Below are positions 5,567 to 61,690 of a stretch of DNA of 64,000 bases, piece after piece. Origin of the DNA: Geosiphon pyriformis (Eukaryota > Glomeromycota > Glomeromycetes > Archaeosporales > Geosiphonaceae). The notes below the pieces were generated by a model that was not told the DNA's origin, did not search any database, and saw nothing but the letters and a program-made list of their open reading frames with translations. Position numbers and translations under genes: made by a program. How positions within the stretch are numbered: position 1 is the first letter of the stretch; the number at the start of each line of letters is the position of its first letter. The stretch is from NCBI GenBank assembly GCA_016748015.1, contig JAAOMT010000446.1:1752-65751 (forward strand). The letters are read 5' to 3'.

Positions 5567-5673
5567 TTTTTTTTTTATTAGAGTTTAACGAGCAAGGTCC
5601 AACCACTATCTAATACATTATGATTATGTAGAATCTTAAAATTAGATGTAGTTTATGTGTTTTCTACATGTAA

Positions 5674-5690
5674 CCAGCTACTCGAGCCAG
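5674..5690 (-). promoter_or_regulatory. LINE 3' stem-loop, copy A
   Basis: In element sense: CTGGCTCGAGTAGCTGG, a 6-bp stem (Watson-Crick plus G-U pairs) with a 5-nt loop, followed by TTACATGTAG. The same fold recurs at five LINE 3' ends in the window. It is the likely recognition site for the LINE reverse transcriptase. Confidence 0.7.
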
Positions 5691-5701
5691 TTCAGACTAT
5701 A

Positions 5702-7825
5702 CTACATTGATGCACCAGAAGAAAACTTACCCAAAGATAACATCTTTTGAATAACAAAAAACAGAGTCACACTACAAGGAACCAATCCAACCAGCCATTC
5801 AGCTGTTTTTAAGGCATCAGCTTTAACATCAATAGGCTCATGTTCTCAAAGGAACAACAAGTTAGAAAACACCTCATCATCCAAACCAACTGGATGCTCT
5901 GAATCACCAGACATATCAATATCCTCCATGCAGCATTTTTTTTTTAAAGAAACCACTTCTCTCTCCAATTTACCAACCATCTTACTAAAAGAACCCATAT
6001 GTACCATAACTTCATTGATCTTAAGGCCAAGTTTACTGCTTGAGACCAAATCCCTATTAATAAATTGCTCAAACAATTTGACCAAAAAACCAACTGGTTT
6101 AACAATAGACTCAACCAAAGTAAAAAGCTTGACCATATCAGATTCCAAAGAAGCCAACCAGAAAGACACTAAGGAATCACCAACAACCATAGAAAGTGAA
6201 GTAGAAGCTGCCAAGAGAGGAAACTCAGAAGAATCCAGGGAAGCAGAAGCTTTTGCATAGGAAACACCACCCACAAAACAAGACTTGAAAACCATGAGAA
6301 TCTTGGGAGTAGAAGGTGGGGAAATTTTGCAATCCACAGCCAGATGGCCCATCTCTTGACACCTAAAGCAGTGCTGGCAGCCAGGAGTTTTCCACCAGAT
6401 ATGGCATTTCCTTAGAGTACTAGTCTTGACTACAGCAGAATCCAAATCACCTTGAGAGTTAAATGTAATCAAAGCAAACTGGGAATAACGACCAGAATCA
6501 GAAAAACAAGGGATAAAACATGTTTGACTACCAATCTGAGAAATCATATCACTGATTTCAAAAGCGGTGCAGCCAGGGGGAAGGTTGACCAATTTGGCCT
6601 TAAACTTATCACGAAAAATAGTCTCATTTTAATTCACTAGAAAAAGGATTTTAACACTATCCTTGCCCATCAAGACTGACCAATGCTTCAAGGCAGACAC
6701 AGCAGAGTCCAATTTTTTAAAATAAACCACCACATACTGCCAAATGCCAGCAGACTTCAGCACAACATGAGTGACACTACCAAACACACTGAGAGCCAAC
6801 TTAACATCAGCAGCAGACACACCCAAAGGTACATTACACAGTGCAACAATAGCAGGAGAGGAACCAGATTCAGAAACCACCAAAAACTTGGCAATTTTAA
6901 AAGTGGCCAAACGAACAGAACTTATAAGCTTAACCAGAAACGCAGCTTTCAAAGACTGTTGAAAAGCAAACTCCACACAGAAAAGCTTCACATTGTTTTT
7001 TGAAACAGATTTAGCACCTAAAAAACCATGTACAGACTGAAAAACAGTCTTAACATGAGCCAATTTGATCTTAAAAGTAGCACCAAACACCAGAATAAAG
7101 GCCACCCACTCAGCAAATCTTTAATGATTAGTAATAGTTTTTCAAACACCACCAGAAGTAGCACCAGAAGCTAAAGAAGAAGATGATTCAGTTTTCATCT
7201 GATCAGCCCAGTTCCCAAAAATAAGTGACTCAACAGGAGAAGATTGTTTTGCTTCTAAAACTGGTAATAATCTGCTGGAAGAAACCACATTTGACAACAC
7301 AGCCAGTGGTTAATCTTGGCTCATCTTGGATGACATGTCGGATGATGCTATGGAGATTTCATCTAAGATCTCATTGAGAACCACAAAGGGGTTCAGTATA
7401 ACAATAGTAAAGGCAAGCAACTATCTCCACTTTTTTGAACTTTTGGTCTTTTTGACTATTTTTTTTAAAGAGGAGGTGCTAGCAGCACCAAGTAAAAAAT
7501 CTATGGAGGGAAAAACCAGCTTATTTACTGGTTTATTATTAAAAACTTTTGGGCTCTTGGTTGGGGTGGAGGCAACACTGGAACTAACCCAAGTGTGTCT
7601 CTTTGAAAGAACTTTGACTGGTGAGAAACCAGCCAAAGATGAGGAAATTGCTTCAGTGGCTACCAAAGGCAGCTTATCACAATTACTGGGTAAAAGAAAG
7701 GCTTCTAAAACGTTTTGCCTAGTTGCTTCTACAACAAAGAGAGCTTCTCTGGTTGAAATTTTATTAGATATCTTAGAACAGATATCAGGTGCAGCTTTTT
7801 TACTCTTTGTTCTGGTCGTGGTCAT
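5702..7825 (-). pseudogene. LINE ORF1 protein (RRM-like, zinc knuckle), decayed, copy A
   Basis: Starts at ATG 7825 (MTTTRTKSKKAAPD) and ends at the stop at 5702, 11 nt before the 3' stem-loop. Several stops and at least one frame change interrupt it, including stops near 7421 and 5846. The N-terminal third is basic and Ser/Thr-rich. Next comes an RRM-like segment (VALCNVPLGVSAADVKLALS), then a second RRM-like segment followed by an intact CCHC knuckle, CFRCQEMGHLAVDC (Cys-x2-Cys-x4-His-x4-Cys), and a Leu/Ser-rich tail. Such proteins bind LINE RNA and form the transposition particle. This copy cannot make a full protein. Confidence 0.85.
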
Positions 7826-7848
7826 AAAATTTTAAGGAGACAAAGAGT

Positions 7849-9237
7849 TTTTTTGGTTTGTTTTATTCAGAATTATTTGTATTGTTAAATTAAATATATA
7901 ATTAAAGTATTGAAATTAAAAATATTTTGAGTTTTATTAAATGTTTTTTCTTTTAATTTTCTTTTTAATTCTTTTATAAAAGTATTATTATTTGCAATAT
8001 TATTTAAGATAATAGCAAGAAACTGTAAAAAAAAATTGGTTTAATAACTAATAAAATTAATAATAAAATTATATAAAAAAAATAAGTGTAACTTTTTTTT
8101 AAACTGTTTTTTAATCTTTTTGACTAAAAATTTGGCTTAAAACAATGATGAAAACTATTTAAGCTAATATTAAAAAAATGTAATTTTCAATAATTTAGAC
8201 ATCATAGTAATTTTAAGTTTTAAATAATGCTAATATTAAAAATTTAGCTCTATAGTAATAATAAAAACTAACTTAGGTTAATATTAAAAAAATATTATTT
8301 TTAATAATATAAACACTATAATAACTTTAAGTTTTAAATAATACTAATACTGAAAATTTAGTTTTAAAACAATAATAAAAACTAACTTAAGCTAATATTA
8401 ATATAATTTTTAATAATATAAACACTATAATAATTATAAGTCTTAAATAATATTAATATCAAAAATTTGGCTCTAAAACAATGATAAAAACCAATTTAAA
8501 TTAATATTAAAAAACACAATTTTTAATAATATTAATAATATAATATTTTTAAGTTTTAAATAATACTAATTTGTTATATAATATGCCGATTTTATTATTA
8601 ATTATTGACTAATTCAAATTTATATAAAAGAGATATATATATATGTATATTTAATATAATTCTATAATATTTTAATACTTTAAAAAATCTGTTTATAATA
8701 TTTATTTTGAAAATAATTAAAATAGCAATTATAATATTTAATGTAATATATTTAAATTATTTTAGATTTTTAGAGTAATAAAAGATTTTTAAAATTATAT
8801 AGTAAAATTTTGAGTATATATTTTTAAAATTAGTATATTTATTGGATATGCTTAGGCTTTGTACACCATAGTAAAATTTTTCATATTTGATTTTTGATTT
8901 AACCAAGTAGGATATTTTAAATTAAGAATAACATAATTGTTAACATATTTATCAATTTTTAAAATTAAAAAAATCTTGAAAAAATGCTTTTTTAATTGTC
9001 AACAAGGTATTTAAGAGATAAAAAAATGATATTCAAATTTAAAAGCTTTATTTATAACATCCATTCAACACACATTTTATTTCGACTACATAGGTAATTG
9101 CGAGCCATTTTATTACATGGAAAAAGCATTTTGTCTGCTTATAAAAGAAAAACAACCCACTAAATAGTTTGCATGACGATAAAATGGTTGAACAAGCAGG
9201 CTATATCCAAATCACAAATCCACAATAAAAGAAACAA
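7849..9237. other. AT desert, containing a satellite
   Basis: No gene seen. The first part (7849-8125) is the 5' flank of LINE copy A. Positions 8126-8572 hold a four-copy satellite, listed separately. 8573-9060 is simple AT sequence with a short TA microsatellite near 8631-8650. 9061-9237 is somewhat richer in GC but shows no recognisable coding. Confidence 0.7.
8126..8572. repeat. Four-copy tandem satellite, ~112-bp unit
   Basis: Units are 8126-8237, 8238-8352, 8353-8460 and 8461-8572. Each begins AAAATTTRG, continues with an AATRATRAAAAC block and a CTAATATTAA or similar block, and ends TTTTAAGTTTTAAATAATRCTAAT with small changes. Units are roughly 75-85 % alike by eye and contain no CpG. 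Confidence 0.85.
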
Positions 9238-9545: not shown

Positions 9546-9731
9546 AATAAATAGAGCTTCCATTTCTTTCTTTTAAAATAAGAAAATCAAGAAAAGGGAA
9601 ATAGTATTGAAAAATTTAGAATAAATATTAATTTAAATAAATAATTTGCTAGTTTATTATCAATAGTTCATATTCAAATGATTGTTTATAAAATTTATTC
9701 TTAGCAAAAACAGCATTCGAGAAATTTTCTA
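9538..9731 (+). repeat. Dispersed ~190-bp direct repeat, copy 2
   Basis: Partner of 2698-2893. It begins with TTATAAATAAATAGAGCTTC and runs up to four bases before the condensin gene's stop codon, so it forms that gene's immediate 3' flank. Confidence 0.8.
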
Positions 9732-9734
9732 TTT

Positions 9735-18465: not shown

Positions 18466-21141
18466 ATGGTTCACGCAACCTCGAAGACGATTACCCAAGC
18501 TACCACTATGACTGCTTCAAAAGAAGTCGATAAAAAAGCCGCTAGAAATTCTACCCGTTTTCTAGCGCAACAACAGCAAAATAATCAACAGCAACAGTCA
18601 CAATCACACGGTTTCAATAGCCAGAGTTCACTTTCGATTTCTCGCAACAAACACTGGAAATACATCTCTTCGTATCATGGACCTTGGCTTCAACTTCCCC
18701 TCGAATTGCTCGAATCATTATATGTATTTAATACTGATAACGTGGCTACTCCACCACCGCCAATAGACCCAATAATTTTTGGAAACTTGATTTCTATTCG
18801 TCGTTTAGTCGACGAAGCCGCCGATTTGTCTGTACGTGCTGCTTCCGGAATTTCTACTTCCAGCGGAAGCATGAGAAACACAATGTCACATACCCGACAG
18901 CATAGAATGAGAGAACTTGCTGTTAATAAATTGGCTCTGGCCTATCGAATAGATGAGATAGCGACCGCTGTTGTGACTATGCAGTCTGCAAGTGCTATTG
19001 ATGAAGTTGCTAGTAGGGTCTTGAAGAAGAACTCCACAAATCTGGAGGCGATGTACGTGAATTTTTTTCACGAAAAAATTCCCTCGAGGTAAACAGAATT
19101 TATAATGTCCCCTAAAGACATCTGCTGCATTATTATTCCTACATTTCCAATTCTTGTATGAAGATAAGGAACTAATGAAAGGCCTAGCCCAGCTTTTTTG
19201 GATTTTCCATTTCAACAAGGCGATAATTTGAGGAAAATAAACTGGAGCGTTGAATATGTGCCTTACCCATTATTTCACAATATTTATATTGCAAATGCAC
19301 AAATTTGTGATAGATTGGACCTAATACCATTTTGTTCCTTAAAAACCTAAAGTAGAATGTTGTCGCAATCTACATCCACCGAAGTGTTGGATCAAATTAT
19401 TGGGACATCTCCAAATACTCCAGAATTTTACCGTACTCGTGGGGTGGTTAAATGTTTTAAAGAAGAATTCTCTGGAGCTCTTCGTGATTTCAAAACTGCA
19501 CTTGCACACGTCAAGCACAAAAAACGAGTGAACAGTGTATTATTAGGCAAAAAAACCTCAAATTCGTTGCATAATCATCACGGAAAAGACTCGGATGAAT
19601 GTACTGGCACTGAAAGCCAATTGTATTTTCTTCGTGCAGCCTGTTATCTCCAATACGCTATCAATATGGTCGACAAAGCCATTCAAAAAGTTGATGGCAT
19701 TGATCGGAGGGATGGCGAAGGAAATGATTTACGATTAAACGTAAAAAAAGAAAACAAAAGCAATCTTGAAAATGCCAAAAATCATCCGCAATTATCAAAA
19801 ATTGAACAGCACCGACAAGAATTTTTACCAATTATGCATCAAATACAAAATATGGCGAAGCGTTCTATTAGAGACTATACTCATTTTTTGGGATTTTATT
19901 CCAGCTCTTTGCCCCCTTTTATTGGAGCAAACGATGAAACCGCTTCTTCAAAAGCAAGCAGCCCAACTGCTTCACGAGAATCTTCTCCAAATCGTAATAT
20001 AAACCATCTTCCTATAACTGAGACGGAACTTATCGTTGCTACAGGCTCACAAACCACAGATCCTATTCGTAAGCATGAAAGTTCCAGTGTCCGTTTGACG
20101 TTTAACAATGGTGGGTCTGATTATGGGAACACACTCGTTCCTTCAAAGGATCAAAATCACCATAACCATCATCATAATACTTGTAACCATAATGGGCATA
20201 ATCATCATCACTATCACCACCATCATCACCATCATCATCACCATTTTCATGGTTTTCAACCACCGCATTCATTCGCCACCTATCACCCTCTGCTCATTGA
20301 GGCTTGGTATGCAATCGCTTTGAATTATATCCTTCTTGGGGATATTCCCACTGCAGCTTTATGGCACGCTCGAATTTCAGAGATGCATGAATGTATAGAA
20401 GGATATCCTGTTTTTCTTCCTGCTAGATCTATGGCGCAAGCAGACTACATGGAAGTTTTAGAAAGGATAAAGAAAGCGACCAGCTTAGTACAACATGAGA
20501 AATTGAGAGAATTAATTGATGTTGTAAAACAAAAAGAGAGAGAGAGAGAAGAGAAAGAACGAGAATGGCTGGAAAAACATCAACACCACAAGATGTTATT
20601 GGCCACAGCTGAAGAAGAAAAGGAAAGAGAAAGAGAAAAGGAATTAGCTTCTGGAAAGAAAGGCAATGGGAAGGCGAACAGGAAGTCCAGAGAGATTGGA
20701 AATTTAAATGGACGGAATGGAGGTAATAATTCTATTGCTCCACTTATGGGCATCGATGGTCAGAAGCATCATCCATGTTGCCCGCTTGCACCTGGTAACC
20801 ATAATTCCTATATAAACAACAAAGATATTATCCATTCCTCCGCCTCTTCCTCTTCTTCCAACCCTTTCTCCCCTTCCAACTCTCCTTCCTCTACTGGTTC
20901 AATGGCCACTACATCAAACAACAGTACAACAAGCATTAGTGCAACTACCACCACCACCACCACCACCACCACCACCACCACCACCACGATTGCGACTACA
21001 ACCGGGCCAAGGCAGTATCCGTTGCATACTCAACGCGCCGATTCCGTAATGCTATGGTTGAGAGCTGTGACCTTGCGACAAGATAAAGAATTGCTTACTA
21101 CCAAAGGTCTACCTGCCGTTAAAAATGTGGATGCATCCTAA
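18466..21141 (+). CDS. Large TPR-like protein with polyhistidine and polythreonine tracts
   Basis: Two exons (18466-19088 and 19356-21141) join in phase to give 802 residues. The conserved-looking core spans the junction: EAMYVNFFHEKIPSR then MLSQSTSTEVLDQIIG, followed by SPNTPEFYRTRGVVKCFKEE and FSGALRDFKTAL, a TPR-like helix pair near residues 225-262. A second helical pair, LIEAWYAIALNYILLGDIPT, lies near 520-550. Between them are Gln-, Ser- and His-rich spacers. A Glu/Arg/Lys coiled coil follows (about 590-640), then Ser- and Thr-rich tracts and a short conserved C-terminus (DSVMLWLRAVTLRQDKELLT). Related hypothetical proteins occur across Mucoromycota and Dikarya as far as I know. The partner and function are unknown. 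The single 267-nt intron is unusually long and gene-like in composition. Confidence 0.85.
20152..20253 (+). repeat. CAT/CAC repeat encoding a His-rich tract
   Basis: An imperfect CAY array encodes His/Asn clusters and one run of ten His near residues 475-507 of the TPR-like protein. Mixed CAT and CAC codons suggest selection or age rather than a fresh slippage product. Confidence 0.85.
20943..20990 (+). repeat. (ACC)n microsatellite encoding polythreonine
   Basis: An almost pure ACC array of about 15 units near residue 740 of the TPR-like protein. It is likely to be length-variable between strains. Confidence 0.85.
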
Positions 21142-21438
21142 TTTTTTTTGTTTTTTTTTTGAGTCCATCTTTACAAAGCTATTCATTTTAATGATAAATC
21201 TTGACTCCTGGCGTTGATGGATAAATGTACTGTACAAATTGATGGACAATCGAGGGAGTAAATCTCACCAATTTGATTATTTTTGGAGGGAAGATTTTTT
21301 GCTTTTCCCTGTATATTTCTATAATTTTTGAAAAAGCTTATCACTTCAATTATATTTCCTTTTTGGAAAAGGTAAAAGCTATCATTTCTATAAAAAAGAA
21401 ACGACGACTTTATTTTCTCAACTCGAGATCAAATCACC

Positions 21439-30005: not shown

Positions 30006-37218
<7,213 letters not shown>

Positions 37219-40973: not shown

Positions 40974-40994
40974 ACTCTTTGTCTCCTTAATTTT

Positions 40995-43121: not shown

Positions 43122-43132
43122 TATAGCTTAAA

Positions 43133-43149
43133 CTGGCTCGAATAGCTGA
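43133..43149 (+). promoter_or_regulatory. LINE 3' stem-loop, copy B
   Basis: CTGGCTCGAATAGCTGA: stem pairs are kept except the outermost, which is C-A here. It is followed by TTACATGTAG as in copy A. Confidence 0.65.
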
Positions 43150-43253
43150 TTACATGTAGAAAATGCATGAACTACATCTAATTTAAGACCCTACGTAGTC
43201 TTATTGTATTAGATAGTGGTTGGGCCTTGCTTGTTAAACTCTAATAAAAAAAA

Positions 43254-44340
43254 AAATATATAATATTAATATATAATAATTTGCTTTAAATTACTAATTT
43301 TAAAAAATTTAAATATTGTTTTAAATTATATTGAATTCAATTTTTTTAAGTATATTATTTATAATTATCATAATTATATAACTTTAAATCTAATTTTGTT
43401 AATTTATTTTTTTATATTTATGTTAAAAAATTTGTTGTTTAATTGATTTTAACAATAAAACTTAAATATTAATAATTATTAAAAATTTAAATAAGAATAA
43501 TTTTATTTTTGGTTTTTTTAAATTTGGCTTTTTCTTTAATAATATTAATTAATTTTGGTTTTAAGAATAAACAAAATCAAAAAAATTATAAGCTGTTAAT
43601 AAATTAAATAAATAAATTTATTAAATAATTATTTTTTGCTTATTAAAATTAATATTAAATTTTTGGTTTCTTTGTTAATTTTTTTTTATTAGTTTTTATT
43701 TCTGTTTTAATATTAAATAAAAATGTAAAAATAGGTTTGAATTTTTTTAAAAATAAAGTTAAAAAGTTTTTTAAAAACTTTTAGAAATTTATTATATAAA
43801 TAAAATTTTTTGAGAATAATTATTTATTTTATTTATAAATAGTTTAATCTGAATATTGCTATATATAATATAAAAAAATAAATAATTATACAAAACAGAA
43901 AAATATTATCGAATAATACAGAAATAAAATTAATTTTTTTTATTTTTATTAAAACAAAGTTAAAAAATTAGACTAAGTTATAAATTATAAATAAATTTAT
44001 TACTATTAAAATTTTTGTTTTGAATATAAATATTAATTATTTAAGTTTAAAAACTGTTATTATTTTTAATAACATGATTAATAAACATATATATAAAATA
44101 TTTAAGATAAAAAACAGACTTTTATTAAACTTTTTATTATTAATTTAAAATTATATTTTAATATTAAAGTTTTATTACAAAATTTATTAATTTTGTTATT
44201 TTTAAAGCTAATTTTTTTACTAATTTTATGATTTAAATATGTTTATTTAATTATAAATTTAATTTAATATAATCAAATAAAAAAACAATAAAATTATTAT
44301 TATTTATTTAAATAAAATTTTTTATTATTATTATTTTGGT
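43254..44340. other. AT desert between LINE copies B and C
   Basis: Homopolymer-rich AT sequence with one CpG noticed (43909). No coding sequence or tandem array is evident. Confidence 0.8.
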
Positions 44341-44398
44341 TTAATGAGTATGGACCAATTGCTATTTAGAAAACATGTAATATATACACATTACAAAG

Positions 44399-47300
44399 CT
44401 AAATGCAATTCACGTGCTTACAATATGTGACCAGCCACTCAGACCAGTTTAGGCTACAATACAAATTAGCCATCACTGATATCATACCCCCCATATCCAA
44501 AAAAATCTGACAACTAATACACAGACCAGAATATATTTCTCTGGTTTTATTTACACTAAGCAATCTGACAACTTCAACACTCAACCTATCTTTAACAATA
44601 TCCACTAAATGCAACACACTGTTATTAGCAACTATTTTTTTTGCCTTTTCCATGGACAATCAGTGATTAGATCTCTCATATTATATTACAGATCTGTGCA
44701 ATGAAGCCAGGTCCCTGACAAAATCAATCACTATTGCACCAGCCACAACAAAGCAACCAAGAGCATCTAAAGCCTTACAGTACCAGTCACTCAACACGAA
44801 GTCTTTAGCCAACATGGAATAAAACTCAGCATTACTCACACCAAAAGATAGGTTTTATATTATTATAAAAGAAGAAACAATAACATTAGACAGTAATGAC
44901 TATTTTACACAAAACCCAGACAAGATTTCATTATAAGCCAACATATCAGAGAAGCACACAAAAGAATGTTCAAATGTGTCAACCTTATCACAAAACAGAC
45001 ACTTGACACTAGGATAAAAAATGTAGTATATATACTTATGAGCTGCTACAGGAAAACAGCCATGTAATGATTTTATAAAATATGACCTCAAAGCTGCCAA
45101 CTGACAGCTCGTATAGCCAGAAGCCATGTGACTATTAGAGTGCCAGACTGCAAAGGTTCTCTTTCAATCTACTAAATTGACCTTATAAGTATCACTGATT
45201 TTGGAACCAAACTCATTTTTCCAATTTGTTCGATATAATGTTTGAAAAAAGTCTGTAACATAGTGTCTAATGTTGCAAGATAGCACCAGATCACCCAATT
45301 TTAAAAAAAACTTATTGACATAAGTAGGAAATGAGGCATCATACCAGCAGGCATCCGAAGTGATCTTATCAGCATATACGTTTTCTAGGATGTCAGAATG
45401 GCCTTTAACTTTGAGCCATGTTACAGCAAGTGACTTCCTCCTAATAAAGTTGACTATCTGTTTATGTTCCATCTATAAATTTTTTTTAAAATCAGGACAA
45501 GCCAAAAGCAATTCATCTGAACAAGCAAAAAGAGCCGTCTGGCTATCAGAGTGAATAAAAACACTACTATCTGAAAGAACACAGGTGAGTACAAGAGCAA
45601 TAGCTTTGAGTTCCACTAAAGTAGATGACATGACCTCCTGAACTTTCACACCAATACCAAGGCCCAACTTTGGAAAAAATGCAGCAGTCCCAGCTACAAC
45701 AAAACAAGAACCAAAATGTTTTACAGAACTGTCTGTAAACACATCAAATGAGACTAGACCAGAATTCAAAAGAATAGTTTGAGCCTCACTAATTGTGCCA
45801 GCGACAACAGGATTCACTGAATGGTCAACAGACATACATGGCCTGACATCAGCAGCTAGCAAATAAGCACCCAAAAAGCAAATGGCCAAGTCAAATCAGA
45901 CTGGGACAGGGCCACACAAATCCAACTGCTTCCAATGCTTAAAGCATTTCCAGTCGAAGCACTCACCCTTTTTGTTTAATAGTTGATCCATAAAAGTGAT
46001 TCCATAGTGCATCAGCAAACAGGCCACTCCGAAGAATACACTATCACCAAGAACTTCAGAGATTGGCATTCCAATAGAGTGATGAAAAGCTGTCAGTAAA
46101 ATAGAAAAGAACAGTCCACAGAATGAAAAAATTTTTACCATTCCAGCTAAAAAATTATCTCTAGAATTGACCTGCAATCTGATAAAATGACACAACAGAT
46201 AAACAGGTGACCAGCTGGCAACTTGCAAATCCAAACTCCAATGAATGAAAAGTCATCCCAAAATATCTGGAGCATTCACAAAATTAATAATGGATAATGA
46301 TTTACTTTCAGACTGTACTTGGGCGAATGTTTTGACACCATAAAATGAAGGATGTAACAATGCAATCATAAGAAAATCACGAAGGAGATGTGCCTTAAAT
46401 TTTAAGCCTCTCCTAATAATAGCATTCCATCTAAAGCAAATGGCACTAGAAATGAAACTAAACTGGATTCTGTAGCTGATAATAGGTTGCAGAACAGATG
46501 ACACCAGATAGCAGAATTGTTTATCAAATATAGCTTTGCGCAAAACCACATTTGAGAAAAAATGCACATCTGAATGCACCTTCAGCAAACTCGGCTTTGA
46601 AAGCCCTTTCATTGATAAAAAAATGCCCAAATAATGATGAGATTCACCCTTTTTGGCCACAGCAATTGGTGTGTCACTAATGGTCAAGAAAATGTCCTTT
46701 ACTTTTTGATTGAAAAGAATGGTGACAGTTTTTTCTGTGTTTATAGAAATATTATTGAGAACAAAAAACTCGCTTGCAACATCCAAAATACATTGGGTGG
46801 CAGCTTGACTACTGCCCACCCAGATTGTATCATCCACAAAAGCCCCAGCAGTAAAGAAAGATGTTATCTCTGCCTGTGATTCTACTCTGCCTGACTTAGC
46901 AACAAATCTCAAGTCAATTCTGTATCCACACAAGTGTTCTTGACTTTTGATTTCACACAAAAGAGGATCATAAAAGATTCTCCAAAGAAGTGGAGAAAAC
47001 ACTTCATTTTGGTCAAGTCTATCCAATACCTTATAACCATTAGAAAGGCCAAAATCTGTCATAATCCTGTTGGTTTTGTTTAAATAGATATTCTCAAAAA
47101 ATTTAATAAATCTATTGCATATTTTAATGTGTTTTAAACTAGACATTAGATGAAACCATCCTACAGAGTCATAAGCCTTCCACATGTCTTGTAATACCAT
47201 CCAAAGTTCCCTACTCTTTTCCAAGGCATTCTTTATAATTAATCCAATAACAAACACAGGCAACTGAGTTGAAGTATCTTTCAAGACTGAAAATTGTCAC

Positions 47301-49143
47301 CTTTAAGGACATCAAATATGTTGCAAGTCAAAGATATACAGTCAGACAAAATTTTTGACAAAATTTTATGAGTAGTTTCTATTAAAGCAATTGGCTGCAT
47401 ATTAGTGAGACATTCTTCCCATTCATATGGTTTAGGAATTATAGAAATCCAGGTGCATTTCCACAAAGCTAGAACATTTCCATACATGAGACAAGAATTC
47501 AGCAAGTTCAGAAGACAACCCAACACCAAATTACCACTATGTTTCCAAAGTTCATTTGAAACACCTAAGAGACCAGCAGCTTTGCCATCTGGCAAATTTT
47601 TTACAACTGCACATAAATCACCCAATCTGATTTTATTCATTACATCAAAAAAAGTATTGTCAACTACATAGGCCAAAGGGGCATATTAATGGGACCACAG
47701 GTCAGGCACTAATTCAGATACTTTGCATTTCCTAGTCCAATCAACCATAATATTATCAACTTTGGCCTTTACTTTAGCCAGTTCTAGAATTAAGTCTCCA
47801 TCCAATACCAAGTGATTAAGAACAACCTTGCAAAAGGGGTGCTCTAGAATACTACTAATCATATTACCCTTTCCTGAAACAAAGTTATCCATGTGTTTAC
47901 TAATTGTTCTGTTGATAGAAACACTCTTAGCCAGCTTAGATTCAATATACTTAGTCTTATGGTAATGTTTTTTAGCAACTGACAATTGTTTGAAAACCTT
48001 TACAGAATTGCTACATATATTAAGCAAACCAGAAATTTTGGAGGATTCCACATCATTCAGAACTGACCAAATTTTAGCAAGATGGACAAATCTCAGAGAA
48101 TCACCCATACTCAGAGCCTTAACTATCTTGGCAATTAACAATTTAAGTCTGTAAAACCTAGATGAATATTTGTTCTTGAAACAGTCAAAAGTACTGTACC
48201 AATATTTAGAAAAAATGGAGTCTGCTGACTTTGTTAACATCTTTTCCAAAAGTTTCCACATAGTATTCAAGTCACTAAGATCCTTAGCAGCAGTAAAGTC
48301 ATCTCTTAAAAGCAACATATTAGTAGTAGCACAATCATTAAAACATTTTCATTTAGCAACATCTGAGTCCTTAAAATTAAACTTCCAACAGTCTGTGTTT
48401 GCAAACTTACACAATGTATTTAACCACTTGTCTAAAAGGCCACCCAGCCCCACTGAGATCAACACAGCCAAGTGATTAGTATTAAAATGGTCAGAAACTC
48501 CACCAACACATCCACCAAACACAGCTGATAAGAGATGATTGCTCACAAAAATAAAATCAATAGTCTTCTTTACTCCTCTGGAATTGTATTATGTAGAAAA
48601 CTTGGATATGGGACCCGCTGAGAGTACATTGTGTAAACCCAAATCTGAGTATTTTTTGAAACTCGCACTATGTCCAGCCCCATTCTCATTAAAATTACCA
48701 CCAAGAAGAACATAAGAGCTAGAGCTAATTGCCAACACAATAAGAGCATTGACAACAGAAGCCTGTTTGAATCTTACACCAGCTAAAGTACCAGCATACA
48801 GACCCAAAATTATAACAAAAGCCTTGTTGGCAAAAAAAAAACAAACAGAAATAAGGCATCCAGGGACTTCTGAGATTTTACACACATAACAAGCAAGATC
48901 ATTATTTAAAACAATTGCAACCCCTGATCCACAATGTCTAGAATCTATTCCAGAGCTAAAAACTTTTAAACCAGAAAACCTATTTTTAATCCATGACCCA
49001 GCATGACCTTTGAGCTTAGTCTCAATAAAAACAGAAACCAAATTGCAAGAATCTTTATGCCATCTAATAACAGCTTCTTATTTAGCTAAATTGTTTAAAT
49101 CCCTAACATTACACGTGGCAAATTTCCAGACCAAATCACTCAT
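44399..49143 (-). pseudogene. LINE ORF2 polyprotein (APE-RT-RNase H-zinc finger), copy C
   Basis: ATG at 49143 overlaps the ORF1 stop (ATGA). Domains in order are AP endonuclease (FATCNVRDLNNLAK, FIETKLKGHAGSWI, LLGGNFNENGAGHSASF; about 49130-48600), a linker, and reverse transcriptase (LPDGKAAGLLGVSNELWKH, WISIIPKPYEW, MWKAYDSVGWFHL, DQNEVFSPLLWRIFYDPLL, the catalytic FVDDTIWVGS; about 47680-46260). RNase H (FTDSSVKHFG, LVELKAIAL, FIHSDSQTAL, KGHSDILENVYAD) holds all acidic positions at about 45770-45350. The C-terminal CCHC motif CLFCDKVDTFEHSFVC lies near 45000. About nine stops or frame breaks separate otherwise continuous blocks. The catalytic residues are still readable, so decay is moderate. 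Confidence 0.93.
44431..44447 (-). promoter_or_regulatory. LINE 3' stem-loop, copy C
   Basis: In element sense: CTGGTCTGAGTGGCTGG, a 6-bp stem with three Watson-Crick and three G-U pairs, a 5-nt loop, then TCACATATTG. Confidence 0.7.
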
Positions 49144-50995
49144 TGAGAGATAATAAGAGCTGGTGAACCCAAACCAGAATACAATTGATCCAACTTCTCC
49201 AATACTGACTCAACTGACACTTCCAAAGCTACCAACTTAGATTCTAATCTACTCACCTTGGTGGTTAAAACCTTAGAACTACTTGAGCTAAGATCAGCAA
49301 TTATGTCTGCAACAACTAAAGGAGGAAGGACAAAAGATGCCAATGTATCATCTATAGCCATATCTGAATCTACAACAGAGTCCAAAGGCACTGGAATAAC
49401 CAAAGGTGAGACAGATGACTTGGATGCCAGAGGCACCAATTCTACAAAACTCAGCTTCTTCATAATGTCAAACATCTGATCTGCCAAAAGCTCCAGAGAT
49501 CTTTCCAAAACTGCTAAACAATTACTTAAGCCAGAAGAAACTGTAGATGCAGAAGAAGGGATACCACTAAGACCTGAGAGTCCATGAGAAAAAAAACTAA
49601 GACCAGATCCAAAGTGAGCACTACCAGAAGACTTAGAGAGTGAGACTACTTGGGCCCAAGATTTGCCACCAAAAACAGTAGAACGAGATATTGGAACACA
49701 TTTTTTTTCATACAATTTAGTAAGCTGAAAACAAAGTTCCTCTGAAGCACCCTTTTTGTATAATTCCTTAGATGACAGCAAAATGATTACATCTGGTGTA
49801 TTATATTCAAGAGCCGAATGTCTAAAACATCTACACTTCTTACAATGAACCAAATTCATTCTAGCCCAAAAGAGTTTTATCCCATTGAAGATAGGCTCCA
49901 TATGAAAGGCAGATTCCAGATCATTATCAGAGACAAAACTGACTACTACACAGCAAATTCTATTACCAGTTTCCATAGATCTGTTTATAATACATGTTTT
50001 CCTACCAGCTCTTTCCAAAAGATTGCCCAGATCATAAGCAGTTATTCCTACAGGTAGAATAAACAGAAGTGCTCTGAACTAATCCTTAGATGCTCAAGTT
50101 TCACAATCCTCTACTGCTTTGGCTACATGCACAGTATCTTTACCAATTAGGAATGACCACTTTGAGGCCAATGAATTAGCTTGATTTAATTCAGCAAACT
50201 CTACCACAGCCTTTTGTCACATTCCAATTAATTGGATTTTGATCGACTTAATTTCCCCAAATTCAGATACTGTGACAACAATTATATCTTTAGATGTATT
50301 CATTAGAATTTCCTTAATTATCACAGTCTGATCTGACCTCATTCTTTGTCTCTTAAGATCACTGTTTACATTGATCCCTTTTTCTCTGGCCAATGATGTG
50401 GCCATATTCATGCTTTTTTCGGAAGTAAAAATAGATCAGATGATTCCTTCAAATTTTGAGGGGGTAGTGGCTCCCCCCAAAACTATTGACTAATGAAAAA
50501 AATTTTCTAATTAACTGGGTTTTTGCTGTTGCTAATTTCCCTTTCATAGCACTAAGATTGATATCAAGAGCAAAAGATTTTTTGGCAGACATCTTAACTT
50601 GAGTCTTAATAATTTTTGGGTCAATCCATTTTTTTTCCAGAGAAATTGAAAAGTGAGAAAAAAGAGAGACATCTTTATTATCATTCATGACAAAATTAGG
50701 AGCTCCAAGAGGTGAACCAAAAATAGCACCAGTATTGATATGCTTGGTTTTAAAAGTATTGGCAGCTGAATTCAGAAAAGACCCAATATTAATGCCAGTT
50801 ATGTTAGCACTTTTTTTATCACCAGACACACTATCTACATCAAAGAACATATTGTCACCAAGCTCAGACTTGTCTAGAGAGATATCTTTTTCATCACTTG
50901 AATGTTTAATATTCTCAAGCACAACTTTTTTTTTTCTGTGAGAAAGAGCCACTAGCAGAACCATGAAAAGCCTTTGGTGCCCTCTTTTTAAACAT
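49140..50995 (-). pseudogene. LINE ORF1 protein, copy C
   Basis: Starts at ATG 50995 (MFKKRAPKAFHG). A run of ten A soon after (about 50927-50936 on the plus strand) shifts the frame, and other stops follow. Order: a basic Ser-rich N-terminus, IVVTVSEFGEIKSIKIQLIG (RRM-like), a second RRM-like segment with VVVSFVSDNDLESAFHME, then the zinc knuckle CKKCRCFRHSALEY. There the last Cys has become Tyr, and a long Ser/Leu coiled-coil tail follows. Its TGA overlaps the ORF2 ATG. Confidence 0.85.
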
Positions 50996-51078
50996 ATTGC
51001 TACTAGAAACAGCCTCCAGGTCCACGAAAAATGGGTTATTAGAAAGAAAAATTGTGAAATACTAATAAGAAAAAATAA

Positions 51079-51143
51079 AAAAACTTCTTTTTCAGAAAAG
51101 CACTTTTTGAGGATTTGTGGATGTAAGAGAAAAAGAAGTTTTT
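51079..51143 (-). promoter_or_regulatory. 5'-terminal stem-loop of LINE copy C
   Basis: AAAAACTTCTTTTTC (51079-51093) and GAAAAAGAAGTTTTT (51129-51143) are a perfect 15-bp inverted repeat around a 35-nt loop at the very 5' end of the element. Copy D keeps a weaker version (53483-53550). It could structure the 5' UTR or mark the transcription start. Confidence 0.7.
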
Positions 51144-53489: not shown

Positions 53490-53639
53490 AACTTATTTCT
53501 TTCTTACCTCCAAAATTCTTAAAGAGCACATTTTCTGAAAAAAAAGTTTTTTATTTTTTTTTTGCTAGTTTATATCAATATTTTTTTACCTAATAATAAC
53601 CTATTTTTTGTGAATTTGGAGGCTACTGTTAGTAGTATT

Positions 53640-55492
53640 ATGTCTAAAAAAAAGGTGCTCAAAGGCACTTTTCATGGTCCTATTAATGGTTTTTTTTCTC
53701 AGAAAAAGAAAGTTGTCTTTGAAAATATTAAACACTTTGGTAAAAAAAAAGATATATCTTTGAGTAATTCTAAACCTAGTAATAATGTATATTCTAATGT
53801 GGATAGTCTGTTTGATAATAATAAAGATGTTAGCATATCTGACTTGAATAGTAGGTCTTTTTTGGACTTGGCTGCAACCACTCTCAAGACAAAACATGTC
53901 AACATTAGTGCTGTCTTTGGATCTCCACTCAGGTCTCCCAATTTTAATATAAATAATAATAAAGTTGTTATTTCTTTTTATTTGTCCATTTCTCTGGACA
54001 GAAAGTGGATTAACTTGAAGATTATTAAAACTTCAGTAGAAATATTAGTTAAGAAGTCATTTACTTTGGATATTAATCTTTTATTAATAGAGAGCAAATC
54101 TATTACAGCTAAAATTTAACTTATTAGAAAATTATTCTCATCAGTCAATGATTTTGGGGGGACTACTACCTCTTTAAAATTTGAAGAAATTATCTGATTT
54201 ACCTTTACTTTGGAAAAAAGCATGGAAAAGACTGCTTTATTGGCCAGAAAAAAAGAGATTAACATAAACAGCAATCTTAAAAGACGAGAAATAAAATCAA
54301 ATTAGGCTGTAGTAATCAAAGAGATTCCCATAAAAATGCTTAAAAATATGATCATTGTTACAGTATTCGAATTTGGGAAGATTAAATCAATCAAAATTCA
54401 ATTGGTTAGAATGTGACAGAAGGCTGTAATGAAGTTTGCTGAATCAAGTCATGTTAATATGTTGACTGCAAAATGGTCTTCTTAATTGAGAAAAACTTTG
54501 TGTGAGTGGCCAAAGCCATAAAAGATCATGATATTTGGGCATCAAGAGATTGGTTTAGAGCACTTTTGTTTACTCTGCCTGTGGGAACAATGGCTTATAA
54601 TTTGAGCACTTTGTTGGAAGAGAATGGTAGAAAAACTTACATCATCAATTGCTTACTTGAATCTGGTAATAGAGTCTACTATACTGTGATTGGCTTTAAA
54701 TTTGAGAAGGAACTTGACTCTGTTTTTTACATAGAACTGATCTTTGATGGAATTAAATTTTTTTGGGCTAGATTTGATTTGGTTTGTTGTAGGAAATGTG
54801 AGCACTTTGGTTATTTTGTCTTAAAGTGTGATACACTGGATGCATCAGTCATGTCTCTCACAAAACTTTATAAAAGATTTGTTTTGAAAGTGAACTGTTT
54901 CCAGCTTGTCAAGTTATATGCAAAAAAAAGTGTCTCAATCTCTTGTCCTGTTGTCTTTGGTGGCAAATTTTGAGTACAAGTAGTCTTAATTGCTTCTGTT
55001 TCTTCTGAAAGTTTTAAGTTCAATTCTGGTTTTGGTTTTGGTGCCTCTTCTTTTAGTGTTTCATATAATAGGATAAACAATCTGGTCTCTTAAAATAGGT
55101 CTCCAATTGATAATTATTTGGCTTTTTTAGAATGTTCTTTGGAGCTTTTGGCTAACCAAGTAGCAAATATTGTAAAAAAATTAAGCATGATTGACTTAGT
55201 ACTTCAAGCCTCTATTTCTCAACTTTCTTCTCCTGCTGCATTTGCACTTTTAAGTTTAGATTCAGATTCAAATATGGTTATAAATGTCTTATAAGCTTCC
55301 CTTGTAGCCCTCTCTTCAGTTCTAAATAAAACCACTTTAACATTGAATTTAAATAGTTTGAAAATTTTAACCTCCAAGGTAGACAGTCTGAAATCAAAGT
55401 TGTTAGCTTTTGAGACTTCTGTAAATTCAGTTTTAGTAAAATTAGATCTGTTATGTGTCAATTCAGTCTTATTAACATTAGCTTCCTCTTAA
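53640..55492 (+). pseudogene. LINE ORF1 protein, copy D
   Basis: ATG 53640 (MSKKKVLKGTFHGPING) is open to about 54117, then broken by stops. The second RRM-like segment (RALLFTLPVGTMAYNLSTLL) and the zinc knuckle CRKCEHFGYFVLKC follow. Its histidine has become tyrosine, a different lesion from copy C. The reading frame ends in TAATG, overlapping the ORF2 start by one base. Confidence 0.85.
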
Positions 55493-58400
55493 TGAATAAC
55501 TTTATCTGGAAAATTGCTATGTGTAATATTCGAGAGATAAACAATTTAGCTAAACAGAAAGATATAATAAAATGGCATATTGAGTCTGACAATTGGATTT
55601 CTTTTCTTACTGAGACTAAACTAAAATGTTAGGCTTGATCTTGAATTAAGGATAGGTTTCAAGGTGTAAAAGTTTTTGTTTTTGGATTGAATGCTAAACA
55701 CATAGATGCTGAAGTGGCTATTGTGTTAAATAATTTTTTGGCTCAGCATATCTGTAAGATCTTTGAAATTCTGGGTTGTTTTGTTTTAGTTTATTTACTA
55801 TTTGATAATAAGATTTTGGTAATATTGATTGAGTTGTATGCTGATGTCTTGGCTAATGTGTGATTTGGTCAAGCCAACACAGTAAACTTTTTTGTTGTTC
55901 AAGCAATCAATTCAAGCTTTCATATTGTATTAAGTAATAATTTCAATAAAAATAGGATAAAACACAGTGCCAGTTTTAAGAAATGTTTTGATCTGGGTTT
56001 ATGTAATTCTCTTTCTAGTGGTGCTGTCTTTAAGCTATTAACATAGTCTAATTCCTAAGATGTAAAAAAAACCATCAACTATGTTTTTGTTAATAACCAC
56101 CTTGTCTTTTCTGTAATAACTTAAGATGTTGAAAGTGTGGCTGAATTCTTTAATACTGATTATAATACTGTTACAATTGATCTTAGTATTAATAGTTTAT
56201 TAAATGAATGTTTGTTTACAATTCATAAGCAAACTAACAAGAACTGCTAAAAATTTAGCATTAAAGATCTAAATAATGCCAATTAGTCTTGTTTTTAAAA
56301 TAGTGTCTTTACTGGTTTGCTTAAGATCTTAGACAGTTTTGATATTGCAAAAAGTTTAAAAGATTTAAACAATATGTGGGAGATTTTGAAGAGAGTAATA
56401 ATTATTTTGGCTAATAAGAATTTTTCTAAGCAATGGTTTAATGATTTTGAACACTCAAAAAATAAGAAATCTTCAAAGTTTTTTAACATGGTGTTACCAG
56501 AAGATTTTTACACTTTTCAATGCAAAAAATTACAACACATACAATAGAAATTAACATTAAAATCATGCAAAAAAGACCTATATCATTGCACTTAATCAAC
56601 AAAATCAGCCAGCAATCAATCCAATTACAACAATGAAATATGACACAATCCAACAGTTTAACTAAGTTGGATACAAAAAAATCTTGACAAACTAAGAAAC
56701 ACCAATGGAAATGAATGATTGTCACATGTAATCAGATAACAACAGGTTTTGTTATGCTCCAAAATTCTCATAGGTTCTTATTAGAACAATCTAACATTCT
56801 AGATCTGCGATCAATGGTTAAAAGTAGTTACCAAGAAATGTAATTAATTGATCTATTTTTGATTACATTGATCATAATCACAATTGATATCATTGATTGA
56901 CAATTAATGTTCTAGATTCAGCCATTTAAATCTGATCATCTAAAAATCACTAGCTCTGAGAAAATAACATGCTGAGTAAGCTTATTATAAATTGATTAAT
57001 TAAATGTATATAAATAATTGATGTATTTTAAATAGTTCTAATATAGTATGTAGATCTGATGTAATTTAGCTATATATACAGCCCCTCTGTCAGTTTAGGA
57101 AAATATCAGTTCAACACTGAGCCAACTCTTCACTATAGTTTTATAATAAGCAGTTAGTTCTTTTCTTTACTCTCCTTTTCCCTTTTCTATGCTCTAAATA
57201 TTTGTTATCACAATCTCAAGTATGTCTTTCCATATTTCTTATTACTATTTGGAATCATATTATTTATAAACTTCTTACATATTTGCTAAAACAAAATCAT
57301 CAAGCTTTCTATTACTTCTGATTTTTCAAATTATGTGTTATTACCATTTCACATTAAGTCTTGTTTCACCAAACAAGTTGTTAAATATAAAAATAAGTAA
57401 TAAAGTATCATGTTGTTAGAGAGTAATCTCAACAATAAAAAGTTAAATCTATTTCAGTTATGTTTTACTTTTACAATCTTTTTATAATTCCTATAACTTC
57501 ATTTTTAAAGCAGGCATTTGAACACCACACCCTTTTGATGACTAATTGAAAGAATTTTGGTTACAATTTTCTTAAATAGTTTTGGTTTCTCCTTGTTGCT
57601 GGTTGTGCTTCTAATACATATAAAAAGATGTGATTTCTCTTTTCTCTTTAAAATACCTAAGACTGGTTTTTGCCCAAAAACAAATAATAATGACAATACT
57701 TTCTTTCACTTTTAATAACCTTATCACGTACCTCTTTTGCTCTCCCACCTACTGAAATAGTCCATACACCCATGATATGCTATAGCCAGTAGCATAAACA
57801 TGGTAATGTGTGTGTTCTAAGTGAAAGTTATTGTCATTGCTAAAAAGTTACAAATCTATAGCTTTCACCTGGTAACAATGGAAATGCTAGTTTCTAAGAT
57901 AATGAAAAGTGTGGTAGTAAGCAATTTGTCAGTATTTGATTGTTTTATCAAGAAATAATTGAGTTTAGATAATGAAAAGACTTCAAAAATTGCAGATATG
58001 TTTTATAGTAGTATAAAAGTAGGTGAAATGTTAAGTCAGCTGTTTCTGGTTAAGAAAAGGTACAGAAAATCCAAATATTGTGAATTTAAAATGGCAGAAA
58101 ATGCTGCCATAAAGAAAACAATTGAAAAGTGCATGGAAAATTTTAGTTCAAACAAAGGCAACATGATAAAAAGTATTCTGAAATAATCTTTTCACAAAGT
58201 TGTTTTGGATCATTTGGTAATTGGAGATGAGTTGGTTCTAAAATCTAATGAGATAAAAAATAAGATAAATGAAATTATAGTGGATTAGATGAGGAAGCAT
58301 AAGGTACAACCAGTACTTTCTGCTGTGTAGTCTTGTCAATATGTGTTCTAGGATTATGTTAGTAAGAATGTTTTCTCTGGTGTAATGAATGCAATCAGTA

Positions 58401-61400
58401 TGAGTGAATTGATTCAAGTTGTTAGTGACTTGCCTGAGAGCAAAGCAGCTGGATTGTCTAGAATTTTTAATGAATTGTGAAAACATTGTAGTGATGTAAT
58501 ATTAGAATACTTGTTGTGTCTGCTAAATTCTTGTTTATCTTGTGAAAATGTTCTTGATTTCTGGAAAAAAGCATGGATCTCAATAATTTCCAAGCCATAT
58601 GAGTAGAAAGATGTCTTAACAAATACAAAACTTATAGCTCTGATTAAAACAGCTAAAAAAATTCTTTTAAAAATTTTATTAGATTGCATTTTTTTTTCTT
58701 GTTCTAAGTACAATGTCTTTTATGATAACAATTTTTCTATTTTAAAGAGTATTTCCATTTAGTCTTTTGTATTTGCTATTGGCTCAATAGTAAAAGATGC
58801 TTTAAAAAAGAGCCACAAGATCTGACTTGTCCTTTAAGATATGCAAAAAGCATATAATTTAGTAAAATGGCATTATCTGAAGGTTAGTTTGAAGTATGTT
58901 AAGATGTATAACAGATTTATAAAGTTTTTTGGATGCATACATAAGGGCAGAGTTAACAAAGTAATGACTAATTTTGGTCTCTCCAATGGTTACAGAGTGT
59001 CAGATGGGCTCAATTAGAGCAAGGTGTTTTTACTATTTCTTTAGAGGATCTTTTATGATTCTTTGTTGTGTAAAGTCAAAAGACAGAAGCATTTATATAG
59101 TTATAGAATCAATATAAACTTTGTGGCAAGAACAGGCAGATTGGAATTTAGTGGAAACAGGTTTTTTTTTTTTGCAGCAGGTGCTTTTATTGACAACACA
59201 ATTTGAGTAGAGAATAGTCAGACTTTGATGCAGCACATTTTGGACATTACTAATGAGTTTTTCAGAATAAATGACATTTCTATTAACATTGATAAAACAG
59301 TGGCTATTCTTATTAATCAGAAGATTGATTTTGCTTTCTTGTACATTTGTGAACAGCTTATCTCAATAGCCAAGCACAGTAAACATCATTGTTACTTGAG
59401 AATCTATTTTTTTGTAGAAGACATATTCAAATCTAGTTTTGCTAAAGTACAGTCTAATCTTAAATTTTTTTCAAATTTGGTTCTTAAGAAAGCTGTATCT
59501 GATAAACAATTTTTTTATTTGGTCTCAACTGTTTTGCAGCCCATTATTAGCTACCAAATACAATTTAGCTTTATTTCTAAGATAATGTATCAAAGATGAG
59601 ATGTTTTTATAAAAAAGAGACTAAGATCAAAAGCCTGTTTGTCCAAAAACTTTCTCAACAAGGTCCTGTATTATTCATTTTTTTACAGTTTAAAAATATT
59701 TACACAATTACAGACTAAGAGTAAGGTTGTTGTATTGATAGTATTTGTTAACTTATCTGGAATTCTTAAGCAATTGTTTAAGCATTGTTTTTTGGATTTG
59801 CAAATTTTGGGATGAACTTCTGTAAACTCTCTACAACATTCTGTTAGATTGATGGTTAATCTTACAAATAACTTTCTTACAGATATAATAAGAGTGCTTT
59901 TGGACAACAAAATCTTTTTGGTTAATAATCTTTCCAGTGCTTTTCATGGTTCTGGCCACTTTCTTATGTCTGAGATTTTGGGGAATTGTTTTTATTTCAG
60001 TGTGGTTTGCTCTTTGAAGCATTTTGGTATTGCTTTTGGAGACAGGTTATTGGATAAATATAAAGTATTAATGAAGTAAAAAACCTTTTGTTATTAAAAA
60101 AGACTGGATCCTAGGGGCCCAGCTCTTTTGTGGTTCAAGAGAACTTTGTTTTATATAGACAAACTTCTGGTTGTGTCAGTTTTTGATTTGGGTTATTTGG
60201 ATCTATTACATTCAGATATCTTTCTGAATATTTGTAATAGTTTATATGAACTGTGAGCAAGTGATTTCAGTGTGTATACAGATGGTTCAATAAAACACTT
60301 AAGTATATTGAAAGTTTCTAATGGAGTGGCAGTTTATTTGTTAGACATTGAGATAGACATAGGTGTTGAGGTGCATGAGCTGTTATTTTTTACATTAACT
60401 GAATCGCAGGCAGTAGTCTTAGTTTTGGAGTGTATTTCTTTTGATTGCTCTATAGTTATGTACTCAGACAGTCAAGCTATACTGAATGCATGTGTTTTAG
60501 AATTTATGTTGAATTGTCTGAACTTTTGTAATAAGTGCTAAATAGAAAGGCACCATATTGCTAATTTAATTAGAACTAAAAACATTTCTGTTAAGTAAAT
60601 AAAGATCAAGAAGCATTTAAGGGTTTTGGGCAATGATAAAGCTAATATTTTAGTGAGCAAAGTTGCACATTTTGGTTTGTTGCTTTCTGTGGATATTTAT
60701 AAAAGATTTATAATGGCTGATAGCCGAATTGTTTCTAGGAATGTTTGCCACTTTGTTTAGAATGTTTATTAGTCTGTATATTATGCTTAATAGGAAGCTA
60801 GTTCTGGTGTCAAAATAGTAGATAAATTTTTTATTGTAAATATTAACTGGATTGGTACTGCTGCAGTTTGGCATCCAGATTCACATATTCTAGCTGGATT
60901 CATGAGCAGAGCTTCTGCCACCCTTTGTACTTATATAATAAAGGCTGTTCACAAAAGACTGCCAACTGCAGTGAGAAAGAGACTTTACAACAGAGCATAT
61001 TCAAGCATATTGTGCCTGTTTTGTAATAATATTGAACTATCTGATCATGTTTTTACTGGTTCAAAGAACTCTAATACACAGACTAAAATTTTATTGGATT
61101 ATGTTAAACTCTGAAAATCTCTAAAAAATGGTAACTGTACATTGTCTTTTATGGTACTTTATTCACTTTTCTCTAAGATCTTAGATGTTGGTATCTACAT
61201 GGTTTTGTATAAGAATTTTATTTTTAGAAAATAGGTAAATGAGATGGTTAATATTTTCAATGATAAAAAAAAAGCACTGTTAATGATAGTTGATTTTGTT
61301 TAAGATTTGGCTAAAAGATATTGGAGTGAGTTTTAATTAATTAGAGCTAAGTTTAAGGCAGAGTTGGAGAAAACCAGTTTAACTGAAAATATTGGTTCAG

Positions 61401-61540
61401 TTAATGTGGCTTTAAATAAAAATCTGGGTCTTCTGTCTTTGAGAACTATTTGTCTGTTTGGTATTTACAAATCTTTTGCTATTAGTTTTGGTTTGCATAA
61501 GTTGTGCATTTTTTTTTGGGTATTAATAATTATGTGAAGA
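55492..61540 (+). pseudogene. LINE ORF2 polyprotein, copy D, split by a transposon
   Basis: ATG 55492 (MNNFIWKIAMCNIREINNLA). Endonuclease remnants lie at 55500-56100. The linker is split at 56491/57878 by a DNA transposon; the flanks join in frame and align with copy C. Reverse transcriptase remnants cover about 58380-59600, with the catalytic motif changed to FIDNTI, so the second Asp is lost. RNase H at about 60260-60560 still shows YTDGS, LTESQAV and MYSDSQA. The C-terminal domain shows CLFCNNIELSDHVF but lacks the last Cys. Dozens of stops; certainly non-functional. Confidence 0.9.
56492..57877. mobile_element. 1,386-bp DNA transposon inserted in LINE copy D
   Basis: Ends are TGTTACCAG (56492-56500) and CTGGTAACA (57869-57877), perfect 9-bp terminal inverted repeats. 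They extend imperfectly inwards: GATTTTTACACTTTTCAATG on the left matches GATTTGTAACTTTTTAGCAATG on the right, read on the opposite strand, after a short indel. ATGG flanks both sides (56488-56491, 57878-57881) as a 4-bp target duplication. Removing the element and one ATGG restores a reading frame that aligns with copy C. Inside I recognise no transposase. The longest open frame is 63 codons (57696-57505, minus). A promoter-like segment with TATATATAC lies near 57075. It may be a non-autonomous (MITE-like) element. A 4-bp duplication fits few superfamilies and is not diagnostic here. Confidence 0.85.
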
Positions 61541-61568
61541 TTTTTATAAGTGTATAGTATAGTTTGAG

Positions 61569-61585
61569 CTGGTTCAAATGACCAG
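61569..61585 (+). promoter_or_regulatory. LINE 3' stem-loop, copy D
   Basis: CTGGTTCAAATGACCAG: a 6-bp stem made almost wholly of Watson-Crick pairs with loop CAAAT, then TCACATGTAG. Pairs that are T-G or G-T in other copies are T-A and G-C here, which supports a real stem. Confidence 0.75.
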
Positions 61586-61690
61586 TCACATGTAGCAAGC
61601 ATATGAATTATGTTTAATTATATTCTTTTATTATGTTTCTGTATATTAAATAGTGGTTAGATCATACTTGTTAATAAAATTAAAAAAAAT

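Follow-up and report, generated by a model that had tools for sequence, protein, structure and literature searches.

Why should the 3' ends of retroelements with different bodies share one short hairpin, and which protein would read it? The question arises from a window of 64,000 nucleotides of the Geosiphon pyriformis genome (the whole stretch of DNA analysed here), in which a sequence-only reading had noticed the same 17-nt fold at five LINE-derived ends, some on LINEs encoding a reverse transcriptase (RT) and others on elements encoding only ORF1. Detailed knowledge of how LINE enzymes recognize their RNA is confined to a few elements, mostly from animals.

Elements and other features of the window

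Reading the coordinates back placed all five hairpins at the positions and on the strands reported for them (Table 1). Based on tblastn, ORF1-only elements (A and C) account for two of these ends and LINE bodies with RT, RNase H or ORF2 C-terminal matches (B, D and E) for the other three, so that the occurrence of the same end on RT-encoding LINEs and on ORF1-only elements with differing bodies was borne out in both classes. The RT of LINE D matched the R2 and L1 ORF2p RTs in PDB, the R2 enzymes being its best solved relatives by sequence. In LINE E the linker between the endonuclease and the RT is interrupted at 56497-57856 by about 1.36 kb without match to LINE D, possibly a nested insertion.

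Other features accompany these elements. Just upstream of element A, tandem-like direct repeats of about 114 nt (8112-8570) are 65-83% alike, and direct repeats of about 160 nt (2724-2885 and 9567-9729; 88-93% identical, 6.84 kb apart) flank its region. Host genes, recognized from their translations only, lie between the repeats at 18466-36000.

Table 1. Positions of the elements, 3' domains, hairpins and host genes in the window.
Feature	Position	Strand	Remarks
ORF1-only element A	5565-7846	-	RRM + CCHC ORF1 (broken), no RT, domain, A-rich end
Domain of element A	5583-5705	-	110 bits, E 3.3e-24
Hairpin, copy A	5690-5674	-	CTGGCTCGAGTAGCTGG
TPR-like protein	18.5-21.1 kb		translation only
Cdc24-like PH/PB1 protein	25-29 kb	-	translation only
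ABC transporter	30.7-34 kb		translation only
LINE B, 5'-truncated	38297-39450	+	ORF2 C-terminal region + domain; tblastn 28% over 264 aa
Domain of LINE B	39316-39437	+	107.2 bits, E 1.6e-23; upstream ORF2 C-terminal match
Hairpin, copy B	39331-39347	+	TTGGTTTGAGTGGCTGG
ORF1-only element C	40974-43252	+	ORF1 then domain; no RT
ORF1 frame, element C	42105-43121	+	338-aa segment
Domain of element C	43118-43239	+	cmsearch 117.7 bits, E 4.4e-26
ORF1 stop TAG at domain start, element C	43119-43121	+	
H0, element C	43120-43123/43228-43231 and 43126-43129/43222-43225	+	
H1, element C	43133-43138/43144-43149	+	stem of the 17-nt hairpin
Hairpin, copy C	43133-43149	+	CTGGCTCGAATAGCTGA
H2, element C	43153-43157/43165-43169	+	
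H3, element C	43170-43181/43209-43221	+	
H4, element C	43185-43189/43198-43202	+	
LINE D	44330-51141	-	ORF1, EN, RT, RNase H, C-terminal region, then domain
Domain of LINE D	44339-44462	-	93.3 bits, E 3.8e-20
Hairpin, copy D	44447-44431	-	CTGGTCTGAGTGGCTGG
RNase H, LINE D	45895-45473	-	Pfam RNase_H weak
RT, LINE D	47685-46253	-	Pfam RVT_1 E 8.7e-11
Endonuclease region, LINE D	49077-48589	-	
ORF1 (broken), LINE D	51141-49140	-	
LINE E	53501-61690	+	degraded ORF1, EN, RT, RNase H, C-terminal region, domain; tblastn map
Domain of LINE E	61554-61676	+	86.6 bits, E 1.7e-18
Hairpin, copy E	61569-61585	+	CTGGTTCAAATGACCAG

The hairpin and the domain to which it belongs

The five copies taken alone say little about selection on the hairpin. 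A 6-bp stem had been described in all of them, but in copy C (43133) the closing pair is a C.A mismatch, leaving 5 bp; a variant with T-A and G-C at stem positions 2 and 3 does exist, but in the copy at 61569 (E) and not in D, to which it had been assigned. The differences among the five are one-sided, from G.U to Watson-Crick pairs, and are therefore weak evidence of covariation by themselves. True double changes in this stem emerge only with more copies (CTGGACTGAGTGTCCAG, TTGGGCCGAGTGTCCAG). The suggested likeness to a tRNA T-arm or B-box is likewise confined to a single decayed copy, the usual loop being YGAGT or YAAGT, and a conserved GGTTCRANNCC box or tRNA fold in the hairpin was rejected on that ground. 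ARAGORN identified no tRNA and Rfam gave no match in the window.

The 17-nt unit is real but was drawn too small: it is one of several conserved helices, and not the best supported of them. It forms one arm (H1) of a domain of about 120 nt that amounts to nearly the whole 3' UTR. RNAalifold, run on 155 tails aligned beforehand by sequence alone, gave an outer stem (H0), two hairpins (H1 and H2) and a long stem (H3) with another hairpin (H4) at its tip. In H0, AGTR and GYCT pair with RGRC and TRCT; in H3, AACYAC-ATTTAG pairs with CTAGAT-A-GTGGTT. The long stem joins the TAGTGGTT tail to upstream sequence, so that the conserved TAGTGGTTRGRCC tail supplies the 3' strand of both H3 and H0. LINE D shows a compensated version of AACYAC/GTGGTT, in which TAGCAATT is paired to AATTGC.

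The domain starts at a UAG stop codon, that of ORF2 in LINEs and that of ORF1 in ORF1-only elements. The TAGTGG motif lies 95-97 nt beyond the end of the last open frame in 31 of 36 RT loci, and that end is the UAG at which the ORF1 of ORF1-only elements also terminates, so the 3' UTR of both classes is essentially the domain. AATAAA-like and A-rich ends follow directly 3' of it in most copies. The final covariance model, which superseded one built from the five copies with long flanks, was trained with copies A, B and E included and C and D left out; over the window it found exactly the five domains listed in Table 1 (E 1e-18 to 1e-26) and no further significant match.

Covariation and preservation of the fold

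Covariation was assessed against a home-made tree null of 1,000 simulated alignments, in which sites evolved independently on a FastTree tree of 146 non-redundant tails with the composition and number of changes of each column matched. The whole structure exceeded this null (p=0.001), as did H4 (p=0.001), H3b (p=0.005), H0b (p=0.03) and H0a (p=0.05), whereas H2 and H3a, each taken alone in the 146 tails, did not. Covariation of the H1 stem beyond phylogeny, which the sequence-only reading had proposed, was confirmed on the same null (p=0.005), and H1 was fully paired in 73% of the sequences against 49% expected (p=0.013). A ranking by mutual information alone was dominated by deep subfamily splits, and among structural pairs only pair 80-91 of H4 reached an E near 0 in this R-scape-like statistic; for that reason the tests aware of canonical pairs were chosen on the same null.

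The fold is also preserved cell by cell. Among 36 diverse tails, 90.1% of the cells were paired, against 86.2% in shuffled and 32-40% in slid alignments, and cells with double changes numbered 109 against 59 expected. Subfamily majority sequences, in which the decay of dead copies is largely removed, paired at 37, 37, 32, 37, 35, 35, 38, 37 and 37 of 38 positions in nine subfamilies, with many double changes; the outer part of H3, for example, reads AACTAC/GTGGTT, AATTGC/GCAATT or AGTCGC/GCGATT across subfamilies.

Occurrence at insertion ends

One AT-rich genome was scanned (124.7 Mb in 406 contigs), and copy counts in it are lower bounds. Its genes, base composition and very heavy load of LINEs are compatible with an arbuscular mycorrhizal fungus such as Rhizophagus. 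Pattern matching with up to three mismatches located the tail 732+737 times (about 1,470), against 4+0 matches for a reversed-pattern control; the motif is thus real and abundant, far beyond chance. Its expected presence at most insertion 3' ends was borne out in loci chosen blind to the tail: it was carried by 36 of 40 RT loci, picked by protein similarity to the D-type RT and read in the stretch lying about 1.9 kb downstream, and by 19 of 20 ORF1-only loci, taken from a search with the ORF1-only ORF1 and read for 300 nt downstream. Nearly all of the 36 tail-bearing RT loci have it at one offset. For LINE L203 the upstream region consists of N and could not be used. Random pieces of the window (451 nt) contained a tail in 7 of 300 cases, as expected from overlap with the known tails.

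Clear target-site duplications were recognized in one of seven copies tested; the flanks are very rich in AT, and duplications are mostly unreadable. Element A has a 20-nt candidate with 2 mismatches. Truncation at the 5' end was seen among the insertions (LINE B). Two loci have unusual tails. ORF1-only copy L184 is devoid of nearly the whole domain through a clean deletion that runs from near the domain start to the A-rich end (GTAGTATAGCCTAAACTCTAATAAAA). In L049 the 5' half of the domain is replaced, and the 3' part of the tail is fused to a piece resembling the N-terminal region of LINE D ORF1 (47% over 176 aa); this is perhaps a chimaeric insertion.

The ORF1-only family

A first look yielded 4190 ORF1-only candidates, giving at least 120 protein matches. 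Seven of the eight copies whose start was read share the same 5' start base, and copies with an intact tail measure 2262-2265 nt up to and including the tail motif; these elements are therefore a mobile family, as opposed to truncations that arose by chance. Element A has the common start and a length of 2262 nt. They are defined repeated elements with ORF1 and without ORF2, as is proper to a HAL1-like half-LINE. The Pol III-derived 5' head of a SINE (tRNA, 7SL or 5S) is absent: the body is an ORF1-coding element of about 2.26 kb, and neither a tRNA nor an Rfam family was matched anywhere in the window. In element A the ORF1 shows a Pfam zf-CCHC domain and a weak RRM. No sign of site-specific insertion like that of R2 into 28S rDNA was seen in the ORF1-only flanks, which are AT-rich and differ between loci, or in LINE flanks, viewed only past the tail.

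Most copies are dead, with stops and flat codon-position divergence (0.109, 0.103 and 0.087 between close ORF1-only copies). Between most subfamily majorities, however, there is an excess at third positions (e.g. 0.172, 0.130, 0.266), and three of four groups have an open ORF1 frame in their majority sequence. As the excess is found between majorities and not in young copies, active members needed the ORF1 protein: judging from these divergences, copies decay neutrally once inserted while active lineages kept ORF1 under selection. The tail is better conserved between ORF1-only subfamilies than the sequence adjoining it upstream. The ORF1 of this family shows about 26-32% identity to those of LINE-D and LINE-T alike and 55-85% within the family; because it is so distant from both LINE proteins, an origin by simple deletion of a sampled LINE is unsupported.

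Body and tail histories

The histories of bodies and tails disagree. In the tail tree the ORF1-only tails occupy two positions, with 56 of them next to LINE-D tails and six inside LINE-T tails, and in a smaller and more careful tree the ORF1-only-T and LINE-T tails form one clade (100/99). In the body tree, all ORF1-only bodies are one family and the six with T tails are nested inside those with D tails. Forcing a single origin of the ORF1-only tails cost 16.4 log-likelihood units, and such an origin occurred in no bootstrap tree, yet the AU test did not reject it below 0.05 (p-AU 0.095, 131 columns). One ORF1-only lineage thus appears, from these trees, to have exchanged its own domain for one belonging to another LINE clade, with the change-over at or near the ORF1 stop. 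Support for the exchange is good, although so short a tail alignment leaves some doubt.

What looked like a junction fossil in L195 and L199 proved to be ordinary homology close to the stop codon. LINE-T and ORF1-only-T tails (L054, L055, L119, L187, L191 and others) have in common two adjacent T.T positions in H3a, and this conserved internal loop might mark enzyme specificity.

Proposed mechanism and alternatives

We consider it likely that the domain is an RT recognition unit, used in cis on LINEs and in trans on ORF1-only elements, with one change of partner. The folded 3' UTR of about 120 nt would be bound by the LINE-encoded ORF2 protein, which RT-encoding LINEs would employ on their own transcripts to prime target-primed reverse transcription. 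The ORF1-only family, which has its own RRM/CCHC ORF1 protein and neither endonuclease nor RT, would be copied by LINE enzymes in trans; we infer this recognition from the anatomy of the domain, the switched tail and the behaviour of stringent-type LINEs. At least one ORF1-only lineage would have taken the domain of another LINE clade, and hence another partner, putatively by template switching. A common end combined with a switch between body and tail is what one expects if the fold is the grip of the enzyme. With rather less assurance, we also lean towards the idea that this coding family persists by exchanging its 3' domain and so following different LINE RTs, the tail type recording the driver enzyme.

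The RT need not be the reader, since both classes encode an ORF1 with RRM and CCHC and that of the ORF1-only elements was under coding constraint; the domain could instead serve the ORF1 protein in RNA packaging or chaperone loading. A tail read in that manner should track ORF1, whereas it changed to the type of another LINE clade while ORF1 remained one family. Because the tail follows the LINE clade and not its own ORF1, ORF2 is the better candidate, and a role of ORF1 as reader seems unlikely to us. Much less probable still is common descent only, with ORF1-only elements as old internal deletions of LINEs that retained a 3' UTR whose fold was unselected. The homology of the tail across both classes and the dead state of most copies would suit such a history, but compensatory changes above the tree null (p=0.001), the survival of 32-38 of the 38 pairs in the majority sequences of subfamilies and a fixed-length family with thousands of first-look candidates would not. 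Equally slight is the chance that the domain acts mainly in the formation or stability of the transcript 3' end, as a terminator or polyadenylation element shared through common host signals: its place immediately before AATAAA-like, A-rich ends in most copies agrees with this, yet a host signal needs no subfamily-specific compensated helices tied to particular LINE clades.

Recognition by the LINE RT, the reading preferred here, suggests that coding non-autonomous LINEs can hitchhike via a structured tail. More than 1,000 natural variants of one RNA domain occur in one genome, on several RT clades and on a coding parasite; with so many variants across RT clades and a parasite that appears to have changed clade, a code of RNA-enzyme specificity becomes testable by pairing tails with RTs. 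The covariance model of this domain is also an annotation tool for a lineage, probably that of the arbuscular mycorrhizal fungi, whose repeats are in large part unclassified (PMC11075540).

Comparison with known systems

Shared LINE tails and ORF1-only elements are already known separately. A literature search of limited coverage revealed no direct precedent for ORF1-only LINEs with shared tails, nor any fungal genome that combines a coding ORF1-only passenger with a 3' domain of about 120 nt opening at the stop codon and a change of tail between LINE clades. The HAL1 half-LINEs of mammals are also coding, ORF1-only and non-autonomous relatives of LINEs, but they depend on L1, a relaxed-type LINE that works via poly(A), whereas here a structured tail is shared and apparently exchanged between LINE clades. 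R2 elements have a folded 3' UTR recognized by the RT; the elements described here resemble them in that the 3' UTR folds as a whole and that the closest solved relatives of the D RT are R2 RTs, and differ in the presence of ORF1, EN and RNase H domains and of a tail common to ORF1-only elements. The template requirements of R2 are cited in PMC4176376.

Among fungi, the EKA genes of powdery mildew are described as truncated copies of LINE ORF1 recruited as effectors and, like the family described here, are RT-less derivatives of ORF1 present in very large numbers, but the portion of PMC4641428 on which this comparison draws describes neither a shared structured tail nor mobilisation in trans. 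For Rhizophagus irregularis, whose genome is probably of the same kind, the catalogue in the main texts of PMC11075540 and PMC8647823 includes LINE/L1-R1, L1-Tx1, CR1-Zenon, I and others, plus SINEs, and a search of those main texts by term turned up neither an ORF1-only or other non-autonomous LINE nor a 3' structure.

The closest parallel is offered by stringent LINEs, which require recognition of the 3' stem-loop by their cognate ORF2 (PMC4176376). In the zebrafish LINEs studied by Hayashi et al., the 3' stem-loop is bound by the segment that separates EN from RT, and retrotransposition is lost when the stem-loop is swapped (PMC4176376). Stringent LINE/SINE pairs include UnaL2 and its SINE, ZfL2-1 and ZfL2-2 (PMC4176376; Kajikawa and Okada 2002 cited there), and LINE/non-autonomous pairs have also been noted in the CR1, Tad1 and RTE clades (PMC4176376). 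As in the stringent pairs, an RT-encoding LINE and a non-autonomous partner have here a common 3' tail with a conserved stem-loop. The 17-nt hairpin is similar in size to the UnaL2 stem-loop, but it is only one arm of a multi-helix domain of about 120 nt that runs from the stop codon, and the partner that carries it is a coding ORF1-only element of about 2.26 kb instead of a SINE.
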